A stretch of 64,000 nt of DNA from Faecalibacterium langellae (GTDB taxonomy: Bacteria > Bacillota > Clostridia > Oscillospirales > Ruminococcaceae): NCBI RefSeq assembly GCF_002549775.1, contig NZ_NMTR01000021.1, positions 806,001 to 870,000 on the forward strand. Reading direction: 5' to 3'. Positions 7,978 through 12,549 of this stretch are shown here, piece after piece (the first letter of the stretch is position 1; each line of letters begins with the position of its first letter). The translations under genes were made by a program, and so were the position numbers. Below the pieces are notes generated by a model. It was given only the letters and a program-made list of their open reading frames with translations. It had not been told where the DNA came from and ran no database searches.

Positions 7978-9924
7978 TTACTTCAGCAGTTCGTTGTGGT
8001 CCGCGCCGTTCACCTGCAGGGCCGACGCTGCACCGTCATGGCTCCAGACGATCTTTGCGCCCGCCATACTCACATTCAACAGTTCAGCGACCGATGCCGA
8101 CGCGGTGCGGGATTCGGTACAGAATCGCAGCGTCTGTGCGCCCTGCTTCTGCAGCTGAAGCAGGGTCTCATGGGTCATCTGCAGCGAGGCAAAGGGATAC
8201 TTTGCGGTCACAACGACCGTGCTGCCCTGCCACTCCACGGTGTACGGCAGCGTTTTGCCCGCCGCATCGGTGACGGTCAGGCCTTCCAGCGCATCGCTGT
8301 TCTGCTCGCTGCTATCTGCGGGCTGCTGCTTATCGCCCGGCAGCGAGATATCGTTGCCGTCTGCATCCCGGCGGTCAATGGACGACCCCGGCAGCAGCCC
8401 CTCGATGACCTGCTCCTCGCCGTTCGCACCAATGGCTGCATTGTCCTTGCCCGCCGTAGACTTGATGGTCACTTTGCCCTCAATGCTGATGATGGCATCC
8501 GCTTCCCGGTCACCTTCATCCGGTTCGATCAGCGCACCACTGCCAATGCCTGCACCGCCCTTGCTGAGTTCGGTGCCATCCTCGCCGGGCTCCGGGGCAC
8601 CGCCCACGGCCGTCACGTCCGGCGAGCCGTCCTCACTGCTGCGGATGGTGACACGGTTCTGGGTGTCCTCGTCTGCTTCCAGGTCTGCGCCGCCGCCGAT
8701 ACCGGCACCGCCGCCAACACCGCCTTCGGCTTTGACCGTCGTGCCGCCTTCAATGGTCACGTCGCCTGCCGATGCGTAACCTCCGCCGATGCCTGCGCCG
8801 TTCGCGCCGCCCTCAGCGTTGACCGTGGCATTGCCGGAGATATTTACCGTCACATCGCCAAGCACACCGCTGCCAATGCCCGCAGCACCCTCGCCGCCGG
8901 TGGCATTGTCCACCTTGGCATTGTCAGTGATGGTCACCGTGCCCGTGCCGCCGAAGCCGCCGCCGCCAATACCTGCACCCTGTGCGCCGCCCTGTGCGTT
9001 TTTCACCTCGGCATTGCCGGAGATGGTGATGTCGGTCTTGGAGTTGTAATAACCGCTGCCAATGCCTGCGCATGCGCCGCCGCCGGTGGCTTCCTCGATC
9101 ACAGCGTCACCGGTGATGGTCACCGTGGCGTTGCCGTAGCCGCCGCCACCGCCAATGCCCGCACCGCAGATGGCTTTCGGGTTGTCTGAGGAGCCTCCCC
9201 GGGCCGTGATATTGCCGCCCGAGATGGTCACCGTGCCGTCGCCGCCGCTACCGCCGCCGCCAATGCCTGCACCGTCCAGCGCACCAGTGGCTGTGATGGT
9301 GCCGCCGGTGATCTCAATCTCACCGGAATTTTTGAGGTTTCCTCCGCCGATGCCTGCACCTCCGTAATTGCCGGTGGCTTCCAGACTGCCGTTTTTATTC
9401 TCATCCTGAATGGTCAATTTTCCGCTGACTACGTTTCCGGCGGCGTCTTTTTCCTCGTTCCGTTCCAAACCGGCGCTCCAGCCGCTTCCAGTCAGCGAGT
9501 TATTGCCGTCCAGTTCAATGGTCGTATCCCCGGTGCCCGAAACGCTCAAGGGCGCCTTGCCTTTAGTATCGGCAATGTCCACATCCGAAAGAGTGATTTT
9601 CAAGTCGTCTTCCGTGTTGTTGATGACTTCGATCACATTGCTCGTGGTCTCGCCGCTGCCCTTGACAATGACATCGTCATCTTTCTCGTTCACGGTCTCG
9701 TTCTGGGTCACCTTGGCTGTGCCATCGCCGTTGGCTTCAATAGTGATGCTGCCATCCCCAATGTTATAGGTTGCTGCAAAGGCCGGGACGGAGAGTCCCG
9801 CCATCAGTGCGGCGACGACAGTCAATGCGGCAAGGCGCTGTGCAAGCGGCCTTGCCATACCCCCCCCCCCTAACATCGGAGTGTGATTCAAAACACGCAT
9901 TGCAAGCTTTCGATAAGGGATCAT
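7978..9924 (-). CDS. Secreted glycine-rich beta-helix protein (carbohydrate-binding-like), phase-variable candidate
   Basis: 648 residues from the ATG at 9924, which follows AAGGAGG by 11 nt. A long basic n-region precedes a signal peptide core (LAALTVVAALMAGLSVPAFA, cleavage after AFA). The body (about residues 125-520) holds some ten degenerate repeats of the form GAGIGGG...G-TVTISG-, as in right-handed beta-helices of the Cthe_2159-type carbohydrate-binding family. No LPxTG anchor, transmembrane helix or catalytic motif is seen. The function is unknown; surface or glycan interaction is plausible. An 11-G tract between codons for TPML and MARPL lies upstream of the signal peptide, so a one-base slip would silence the gene. 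A start at 9858 just after the tract is an alternative. Confidence 0.75.
   Translation of the reverse strand: MIPYRKLAMRVLNHTPMLGGGGMARPLAQRLAALTVVAALMAGLSVPAFAATYNIGDGSITIEANGDGTAKVTQNETVNEKDDDVIVKGSGETTSNVIEVINNTEDDLKITLSDVDIADTKGKAPLSVSGTGDTTIELDGNNSLTGSGWSAGLERNEEKDAAGNVVSGKLTIQDENKNGSLEATGNYGGAGIGGGNLKNSGEIEITGGTITATGALDGAGIGGGGSGGDGTVTISGGNITARGGSSDNPKAICGAGIGGGGGYGNATVTITGDAVIEEATGGGACAGIGSGYYNSKTDITISGNAEVKNAQGGAQGAGIGGGGFGGTGTVTITDNAKVDNATGGEGAAGIGSGVLGDVTVNISGNATVNAEGGANGAGIGGGYASAGDVTIEGGTTVKAEGGVGGGAGIGGGADLEADEDTQNRVTIRSSEDGSPDVTAVGGAPEPGEDGTELSKGGAGIGSGALIEPDEGDREADAIISIEGKVTIKSTAGKDNAAIGANGEEQVIEGLLPGSSIDRRDADGNDISLPGDKQQPADSSEQNSDALEGLTVTDAAGKTLPYTVEWQGSTVVVTAKYPFASLQMTHETLLQLQKQGAQTLRFCTESRTASASVAELLNVSMAGAKIVWSHDGAASALQVNGADHNELLK
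9860..9870 (-). repeat. Poly-G tract (11 G on the coding strand) inside the signal-peptide region
   Basis: Eleven consecutive C on the + strand. In the current register it encodes four glycines and keeps the upstream start in frame with the signal peptide. Gain or loss of one base shifts frame to an early stop. Confidence 0.85.
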
Positions 9925-9949
9925 AACACTGCAGGCCTCCTTCATATTC

Positions 9950-9982
9950 GGCAACCCGTGCAGGCTTTCTGCACGGGTTGCC
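9950..9982 (-). promoter_or_regulatory. Perfect 14-bp hairpin in the 5' leader of the beta-helix gene
   Basis: GGCAACCCGTGCAG pairs exactly with CTGCACGGGTTGCC around a 5-nt loop. It ends 10 nt before the GGAGG of the gene. No U-tract follows on the leftward strand, so it is not a terminator for that transcript. It may control translation or mRNA stability. Confidence 0.6.
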
Positions 9983-10077
9983 ATTTTTATGCAAATTTTA
10001 TCTGCTGCATCCACTATAACATGTTTTTCGTCAAAATTCCATATTGTGTGCCGAAAACTCCAGTGAAATCTTATCAT

Positions 10078-10532: not shown

Positions 10533-11834
10533 TCATGAATTGTCGGTGGAATGCGCCACCGGCAGCGAACAGGTGAAGCGGAACCAGCAGTCCCGGCAGC
10601 TGACCGTATACTCGGCCCCATATTTGCGCAGGATCTCCTGCACGTTCACAAGGCCCATGCCATGGCCGCTCTCCTTTTTGGTGGTGGCAGGCAGGCGGCC
10701 GTCCTCGATCTCCAGATTTTGCTGCACACGGTTGCACACCGAGATGAGGTATTCGTCCGGGGTCTTGCGGATGCGCACATGTACCTCCGGTGGCAGCGCT
10801 TCTGCCGCTGCACGGATGGCATTATCCATCAGATTCGAGATGACGATGACCATGTCCGTGCTGTCAAAGGGCAGACGCTTGAGGTCGCACAGGTCAAAAT
10901 AGACCGTCACGCCCTTGTGCGCGGCTTCCTCGTACTTTTTGCTCAGGATGGAATCCAGCAATGGGTTATGGGTGTCCATGATGGTGGTGCCCGCCGCCAC
11001 TGCCTTGCTCACACCGGCAATGTAGGCCCGCGCGCCTTCCATGTCGCCCTGATTCAGCAAGGCGCTGAGGGCGCTCATATGGTTTGTGAACTCGTGGGTC
11101 AGGCGGCGCTGAGCGGTGTAGGAATCCAGCAGGGCTTCCGCCCGCTGCTGCTCCAGCTGGGCGCGGAAGCGGGAGCTCTGCCGCTGCACCACCTGGTCGT
11201 TGAACATCTGCACGATGGCGATGTGCACCAGCACGGCCACCGTCAGGCCGACGGTCAGCACCATGTTCATCAAGGTGGGCTTCTGGCGGTTGGCCGAGAC
11301 CATCAGGCCCATGTTCAGCGCCACGACCACTCCGGGGAAAAAGCTCATCACGGCCGCCTGCAGCGGCTCCAGCGCGCAGGTGCTGTTCCAGCGGCGCATG
11401 AAGTACGCCACCAGCAGCCCCACCGCCAGAATGGAGACCACCAGCGCGGCCAGACAGCTCTTATAGCGCCAGACGCTGCCGGTGGGCACGCCGAGGAACC
11501 AGGCAAAGAGGAAACTCACGGTATTTTCGGTCAGCAGACACATCACACCGTTGATGAGGCTGCCCGTCAGCTTCTGGTTGGGTGTACCGCCAAACAGCAG
11601 CGATGCCAGCAGCAGGTACACCACGTTGGTGGCAATGGAGGCCGTGTTGAAAAAACCCAGATCCCACCGAATCGAGACGAACAGCACGCACGCCGCCAGC
11701 ACAGCCGCCCAGATGCAGGGATAGCGTACCTTTTTGTTTTTGCCAAGGTAAGCGTAGTCCACCAGAATGAAGGCGGCCCACTGTGCAATGCAGACCAGGT
11801 GCCCCAGCAGTGTCCAGAGAAGTGTATCATTCAT
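10533..11834 (-). CDS. GHKL sensor histidine kinase (AgrC/ComD-type)
   Basis: 433 residues. The N-terminal half has six or so membrane helices (about residues 1-200), a coiled linker, then the H-box THEFTNHM (phosphorylated His in HE), N-box NLMDNAIRAA and G-box GHGMGLVNV of a GHKL ATPase. The kinase senses a signal at the membrane and phosphorylates the response regulator encoded just upstream in the same operon. The start ATG at 11834 overlaps the end of the regulator gene by 8 nt; an earlier in-frame ATG lies inside that gene. No AgrB or AgrD gene is nearby, so a peptide ligand is not shown. The neighbouring secreted protein gene is a possible target. Confidence 0.88.
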   Translation of the reverse strand: MNDTLLWTLLGHLVCIAQWAAFILVDYAYLGKNKKVRYPCIWAAVLAACVLFVSIRWDLGFFNTASIATNVVYLLLASLLFGGTPNQKLTGSLINGVMCLLTENTVSFLFAWFLGVPTGSVWRYKSCLAALVVSILAVGLLVAYFMRRWNSTCALEPLQAAVMSFFPGVVVALNMGLMVSANRQKPTLMNMVLTVGLTVAVLVHIAIVQMFNDQVVQRQSSRFRAQLEQQRAEALLDSYTAQRRLTHEFTNHMSALSALLNQGDMEGARAYIAGVSKAVAAGTTIMDTHNPLLDSILSKKYEEAAHKGVTVYFDLCDLKRLPFDSTDMVIVISNLMDNAIRAAAEALPPEVHVRIRKTPDEYLISVCNRVQQNLEIEDGRLPATTKKESGHGMGLVNVQEILRKYGAEYTVSCRDCWFRFTCSLPVAHSTDNS

Positions 11835-12549
11835 CGGCAAACTGCCCCTTCCATTCCAGCCAGGCGTTGCGGATGGCTGCATAGCTCTGGCGGCTGACGC
11901 CCAGCTCCACGCCGTTCTTCAGCTCCACTTTATAATTGCGGATGCTGTGCACATGGCTCATGTTCACCACATCGCTGCGGCTCACCTGCAAAAAACCATT
12001 CTCATAAAGCATGGCGGGCAGCTCGGCCAGCTTGCCGTAAAAGGTGCAGATGGGCCGGTGCGGGATGTCGCCGTAGATGTCGATCTGGCGCAGAGCGCTT
12101 TCCAGATAATAGATCTGGTACAGCGGGATCTCGCTGGTGGCGCGGTTGTGGTGCACGGTCAGGGTCCGGTGCTGGTCGGTAAAGGCCGCCAGCAGATCGT
12201 CCAGGCACTTGGGCAGCATCCGGGCAATGTCCCGTTTGAGCAGGTAGCGGTAGGCATTGACCGTGTAGCCTTCGGGGGCAAATTCCAGATAGGCCGAGAC
12301 GTAGACCAGCCGAATGTCGGGGCTTCTCTGCTTGAGCTCCCGCCCCAGTGCGATGCCATTGGTGCCGGGCATATCCACATCCAGAAACGCAAGCTGATAC
12401 AGCTCCAGATACGGCGTGCGCAGCGCCTCGGCCGCACCGGTGCAGACGACGGTCTGCAGCTGGACCGACCGAGCTTCGAAATAATCGTGGATATAGTCTG
12501 CCATACGCGCACCGAACGCCGCGTCGTCGTCACAAATCAGAACGTGCAT
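11827..12549 (-). CDS. LytTR family response regulator (AgrA/ComE-type)
   Basis: 240 residues. A receiver domain (about 1-120) shows the acidic pocket ICDDD and the phospho-acceptor Asp in FLDVDMPGTNG. The C-terminal LytTR domain (about 140-240) binds direct-repeat DNA sites with 10-residue beta strands; HSIRNYKVELKNG and SRQSYAAIRN are typical. The start ATG at 12549 follows AAAGGAA. It is the first gene of a two-gene operon with the GHKL kinase. A terminator-like hairpin (12574-12598) just upstream separates it from the NSS transporter gene. Confidence 0.9.
   Translation of the reverse strand: MHVLICDDDAAFGARMADYIHDYFEARSVQLQTVVCTGAAEALRTPYLELYQLAFLDVDMPGTNGIALGRELKQRSPDIRLVYVSAYLEFAPEGYTVNAYRYLLKRDIARMLPKCLDDLLAAFTDQHRTLTVHHNRATSEIPLYQIYYLESALRQIDIYGDIPHRPICTFYGKLAELPAMLYENGFLQVSRSDVVNMSHVHSIRNYKVELKNGVELGVSRQSYAAIRNAWLEWKGQFADE

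Follow-up and report, generated by a model that had tools for sequence, protein, structure and literature searches.

The locus and its G tract

The window, by which is meant the whole 64-kb stretch of Faecalibacterium langellae DNA that was analysed (genome G000), contains on its minus strand a gene for a secreted protein in whose first codons lies a run of 11 G. That the organism is a Faecalibacterium agrees with a 16S primer given for F. prausnitzii (PMC11208268), to which this genome and 8 of 30 other genomes of the genus have an exact match. The features of the gene and of its upstream region are as follows.

7978..9924, minus strand: coding sequence of 648 aa with a signal peptide followed by Beta_helix_3 repeats (ATG 9924, TAA 7980-7978)
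9775..9858, minus strand: signal peptide MARPLAQRLAALTVVAALMAGLSVPAFA, cleavage site placed by eye
9858-9856, minus strand: internal ATG, a possible second start, 1 nt past the tract
9860..9870, minus strand: G tract, 11 G, codons 19-22, the proposed slippage switch
9871..9924, minus strand: leader MIPYRKLAMRVLNHTPML, 5' of the tract, common to 11 homologues
9936..9942, minus strand: Shine-Dalgarno sequence AAGGAGG, 11 nt before ATG 9924
9950..9982, minus strand: hairpin of the 5' leader with a perfect 14-bp stem and a loop of 5 nt; 7 nt lie between it and the Shine-Dalgarno sequence
10013..10021, minus strand: extended -10-like TGTTATAGT, read by eye
10533..12543, minus strand: GHKL kinase and LytTR response regulator, neighbours further upstream, also present beside the orthologue in genome G030

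The run, which a preliminary description of this DNA had reported, extends from 9870 to 9860 in the context GATGTTA-G11-TATGGCAAGG, and its 11 G together with one T make up codons 19-22 of the 648-codon gene. The accompanying statement that the tract interrupts the reading frame needs to be qualified, because at 11 G the computed frame is open and the tract lies inside it; the frame closes at lengths that are not a multiple of three away. Computed products end after 52, 33, 53 and 34 residues at 9, 10, 12 and 13 G respectively, so that a one-base slip does lead to an early stop, as had been claimed. A long 5' mononucleotide run and an early stop upon the gain or loss of one base are two of the marks of a homopolymer translational phase-variable gene, and both are found here.

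The glycine-rich repeats of the product are the Pfam family Beta_helix_3 (PF18889), which matches in 8 stretches with 53.8 bits against a cut-off of 27; an NCBIfam search with the protein returned no family. Export of the product, in line with the extracellular location proposed earlier, is supported by the signal peptide, while the suggested role in interaction with host or phage is conjecture. Upstream, a stretch of about 70 nt that contains the hairpin has a folding energy of -33.6 kcal/mol, and its counterpart in G030 is, by eye, an imperfect stem. The element TGTTATAGT at 10013..10021 is the probable promoter, one without a good -35. The possibility that the window tract is itself a promoter-spacer switch was considered and rejected, its -35/-10 score being 7/12 (p 0.68).

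Number and length of runs

The tract at 9860-9870 is the only run of at least nine G in the window, and 21 of 100 dinucleotide shuffles yield equally many matches. Across the genome, composition predicts about 67 runs of nine or more and about 20 of ten or more, an expectation that applies the G+C content of the window (0.589) to the whole genome, and 13 are observed. Since the number of runs is not above what base composition predicts, it was rejected as proof of a switch, and the existence of the run alone is not beyond chance. Two things are non-random: where the runs are placed, and that homologues have a run again at the same position. The length spectrum is also odd: the 13 runs measure 10, 11 (six times), 12, 14, 17, 17, 18 and 39 nt, so that six are of exactly 11 and none is of 9. 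Tract lengths in assemblies are error-prone, and the values for two of these, located at the ends of contigs, clearly cannot be trusted. A single poly-G promoter locus is present both at the end of contig G000:C1 (L061, 17 G) and at the start of contig G000:C11 (L062, 39 G), in degraded sequence; the 39-G run and this 17-G run seem to be assembly artefacts, the assembly having broken at the tract.

Homologues in the genus

A search of 31 Faecalibacterium genomes with the leader pattern YRKLAMR detected 11 homologues, which come from 7 of the genomes, and the reversed control detected none. Because the homologues were chosen by a pattern inside the leader, the conservation of the leader is partly by construction; the start ATG and the GGAGG upstream of it lie outside that pattern, and both are present in 11 of 11 homologues, which supports the ribosome-site-supported start at 9924 of the preliminary description. 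Homologues with another leader, found by protein search of genomes, are outside the 11 counted. A protein search of genome contigs gave 58 pattern stretches and no relatives, a search of viral contigs with the flank of the tract gave no match, and eight unannotated phage records match parts of positions 1-25000 of the window, none of which covers the gene.

In seven of the 11 homologues, belonging to four genomes, a run starts 53-60 nt into the gene. Three of these coding runs leave the gene in frame (the window gene with 11 G, G012:C3 with 9 G and G012:C24 with 7 G), and four put it out of frame (G030 with 14 G, two copies in G002 with 8 G each, and G012:C1 with 9 C). Among the homologues the tract differs in length (7, 8, 8, 9, 11 and 14 G; 9 C) as well as in frame; these differences are between species and between paralogues, the species of the window being represented by one assembly. 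The other four homologues (two in G008, one each in G014 and G015) are in frame without a coding run, and have instead a C run 83-151 nt upstream, of 9 and 9 C in G008, 11 C in G014 and 7 C in G015. By eye, the C run of G008 and G015 sits between TTGCA and TATAAT; that of G014 scores 8/12 in the promoter-spacer test (p 0.34). It seems that this gene family has acquired the run in two places, upstream and at the coding start.

In each of the out-of-frame copies the main frame past the run is open throughout the 489 codons that were fetched. The G030 copy is the orthologue of the window gene by synteny, with LytTR-GHKL genes on one side and pyrI-pyrB on the other; the two are 79% identical, with a dN/dS of 0.21 over 624 codons. 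Values for two other pairs are 0.35 (G012:C3 and one G002 copy, G002a) and 0.52 (the in-frame pair G015 and G008). Constraint is thus moderate, and the ratio is no guide to whether a pair is in frame or out of frame. As far as sequence can indicate, the open frame and the dN/dS of the G030 copy would be expected of a reversible OFF state rather than of a decaying gene.

Tracts in promoter spacers

The 13 run sites of the window's own genome represent 12 loci, all of which were scored for a TTGACA and a TATAAT around the run. Six of the 12 have the run between a -35 and a -10 with a score of at least 10/12, against 0.09 expected from shuffled flanks, and eight score at least 9, against 0.67 expected; the window tract and three other own loci show no promoter geometry in this test. 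A typical promoter tract of this genome reads TTGACATCCACATA-G11-TAAAAT. Elsewhere, scores of at least 10 are reached by 8 of 12 loci in G002 and by 7 of 24 in other genus genomes, or by 6 of 10 and 6 of 23 when sites picked by the pattern G9-TAWAAT are set aside (L233 and L234 in G002, L242 in G012). The loci come from G000, G002, G003, G008, G012 (less one site at a contig end), G014, G015, G028 and G030, and 13 other genus genomes with runs are outside the test; L244, at a contig end, was dropped, and the 39-G run at a contig start was omitted as the same locus as L061.

An open reading frame begins within 300 nt of 18 of 19 genus promoter-tract sites, and all 18 have an export signal, compared with 12 of 58 genes in the window, which alone serve as the background (Fisher test, 7e-10). 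These sites were chosen as promoter-type, with L061/L062, L067, L226 and L260 left out of the count. Among sites of the family outside the genus, the count covers 21 of 26; five of these are without a reading frame, and 14 of the other 16 reading frames are exported. Under a stricter ribosome-site rule, 13 of 44 sites are without a reading frame, and 27 of the other 31 are exported. The signal-peptide rule is home-made, and its split between lipoproteins and other exported proteins is unreliable. In Pfam searches with the six own promoter-tract genes, one has a BspA-type leucine-rich repeat, three have the InlB B-repeat (one just at the cut-off), one has a sub-threshold S-layer homology match, and two have nothing.

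Some individual sites have features of their own. At L070:3065-3151 (G000:C44:63364) an 18-G promoter tract gives a spacer of 26 nt, and a paralogue downstream has a stop inside its signal peptide. At L067:3002-3012 (G000:C11:969801) an 11-C run lies in the spacer (TTGATT, TAAAAT, spacer 19; 9/12) and precedes another exported protein, of 806 aa. L226 (G002:C1:1744948) is possibly a divergent switch: its C strand has TTGACA-18-TAGAAA, and on the G strand the run is followed immediately by TAGAAT.

Spread beyond the genus

The pattern G9-TAWAAT occurs in 5 of 31 genus genomes (16 sites) and in 17 of 297 family genomes (40 sites), with no match of the reversed control in either set, and in 8 of 299 genomes of the phylum, where the control matches one; each of these counts includes the window's own genome. 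Seven genomes (G000, G002, G073, G147, G141, G261 and G285), from three genera, have more than one site. The strict pattern TTGACA-N3-12-G8-TATAAT is rare in the phylum as a whole (1 of 398), which says little, since it misses the window's own genome too. G073 and G147 are two species that belong to a different genus of the family, and a search for runs of at least 5 G found 14 promoters in them. Of these, 12 have TTGACA-led flanks that resemble one another; the main difference is the run, whose length of 5 to 11 G produces spacers of 11 to 19.

A scan of named sequences for G10-TATAATG gave at least 113 stretches, many of them from gut Bacilli and Clostridia that are uncultured. Among the matches listed, 76 of 117 have a -35-like box (5 or 6 of 6 positions), compared with 15 of 117 when the window is shifted; the counts include entries that run off the end of the locus. 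These matches indicate that G runs in promoter spacers are not peculiar to Faecalibacterium. On CALVYA and CANQNL contigs (for example L114, L121, L130 and L145), single genomes of uncultured gut Bacilli have several G10-TATAATG promoters, and these precede proteins of about 450-510 aa that resemble one another and have a hydrophobic N-terminus. In Streptococcus suis (L135) and Streptococcus azizii (L140) a G run lies directly before TATAATG, followed at 373 nt and 42 nt respectively by reading frames of 1591 and 1312 aa, each with a hydrophobic N-terminus.

Proposed replication slippage and its alternatives

The placement of the runs and their recurrence in homologues make phase variation by replication slippage the best reading of the data, and the window tract is likely to be a translational phase-variation (contingency) switch of this kind. 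Translation would start at ATG 9924 and read through the tract, to which replication slippage would add G or from which it would remove G. At 11 G, or at a length a multiple of three away, the signal peptide and the beta-helix would be in frame and the protein would be exported, and at other lengths only a peptide of 33-53 residues would be made. In a promoter class, to which about half of the other tested own tracts would belong, slippage would alter the -35/-10 spacing before exported proteins, and several poly-G switches per genome would generate a mosaic of surface proteins in the population. We infer from the data slippage in vivo, ON/OFF expression, a surface location of the product and a benefit.

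The on/off switch of the preliminary description is partly supported, by the tract and its frames, the conserved start, the early stops, export, the differences of length and frame across species, and the genome-wide placement of runs, including the promoter tracts of exported proteins. The promoter class lends its support by analogy only, because the window tract is without promoter geometry. A MutS domain is present in 30 of 31 genus genomes and counts against the switch, since mismatch repair should damp slippage, so far as a single domain is informative. The internal ATG at 9858 counts against it too, since it could bypass the tract.

If that ATG were the start from which the protein is made, the G run would act as its Shine-Dalgarno sequence and tract length would hardly matter in this species. 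The ATG lies 1 nt past the tract, a signal peptide that starts there is normal in length, and the run pairs with the anti-Shine-Dalgarno core at -8.7 to -10.4 kcal/mol for spacings of 5-7, compared with -11.5 to -11.9 kcal/mol at spacings of 10-11 for ATG 9924. The start at 9924 is also separated from its GGAGG by 11 nt (spacing 10-11 nt), which exceeds the gaps of 7-9 nt in ten homologues. The retention of the upstream ATG and GGAGG in every homologue argues against this explanation, however, as does the fact that, where a coding run is present in the remaining six homologues, the 12 nt past it contain no ATG, and we consider it unlikely, though it is the main rival. If the run serves as a ribosome site, initiation at 9858 could also make the OFF state leaky in this species.

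It is improbable that the 11 G are a neutral run and the out-of-frame homologues assembly errors or young pseudogenes. Such an account would agree with a number of runs not above composition, with the four out-of-frame copies among the seven that have a coding run, and with the error-prone nature of homopolymer lengths, but against it stand the same placement in seven genes of four genomes, the main frame open past the run, the dN/dS of 0.21 with G030 and the concentration of the other runs of the genome in promoter spacers. Long runs can be slippery, and slippage of RNA polymerase or of the ribosome might yield a fixed mixture of frames from unchanged DNA; this is very improbable, since it is in their DNA that the homologues have runs of different length, and runs in promoter spacers would not work by such a route.

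On balance, a multi-gene contingency system in Faecalibacterium and related gut Clostridia is somewhat more probable than not, and in it the surface proteome of each cell would be a random combination. The system would consist of long G (or C) tracts in the promoter spacers or first codons of exported genes, and these would be of the beta-helix, leucine-rich-repeat, InlB-repeat and lipoprotein classes.

Significance and comparison with known systems

The interest of the poly-G tracts lies in their host and their extent. Faecalibacterium is among the commonest human gut bacteria, and its strains differ in their effects in ways that are hard to explain by gene content. If its surface proteins are switched by slippage, a culture or an assembly captures one state only, and the responses of host or phage could shift without the gain or loss of genes. 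Among the matches listed in the open-access literature there is no report of G-tract switching in Faecalibacterium, which is weak evidence of absence, and none of coding and promoter tracts together in one Faecalibacterium genome.

In Neisseria, Campylobacter and Helicobacter, as proposed here, surface genes are switched by simple repeats that lie at the start of the coding sequence or separate promoter elements; these are other phyla and other genes, and there the switching has been demonstrated experimentally. For NadA it is reportedly the spacing of distal promoter elements that is involved (PMC2791445). The Listeria inlA gene resembles the window gene in that it encodes a surface protein of a Firmicute and is inactivated by a frameshift in a 5' homopolymer, but it involves a poly(A) tract, one gene and a truncated product of 8 aa (PMC2831843).

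The earlier statement that homopolymer phase variation is known mostly from Proteobacteria is incomplete, since Bifidobacterium breve has a coding G-tract switch of the same kind, and the switching of surface genes by G-tract slippage is established, in a gut Bifidobacterium too (PMC9187656). Slippage in the G-tracts of the sortase-dependent pili of B. breve UCC2003 was measured by maximum depth sequencing, and the authors also mention G-tracts in promoter spacers (PMC9187656). The likeness is close, in that a gut commensal has, at one locus, 11 or 12 G within the gene that comes first in a cluster for a surface structure, and the length of the tract decides expression (PMC9187656). The difference is that the B. 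breve tract belongs to a pilus operon with two reading frames, whereas that of Faecalibacterium belongs to a single secreted beta-helix protein.
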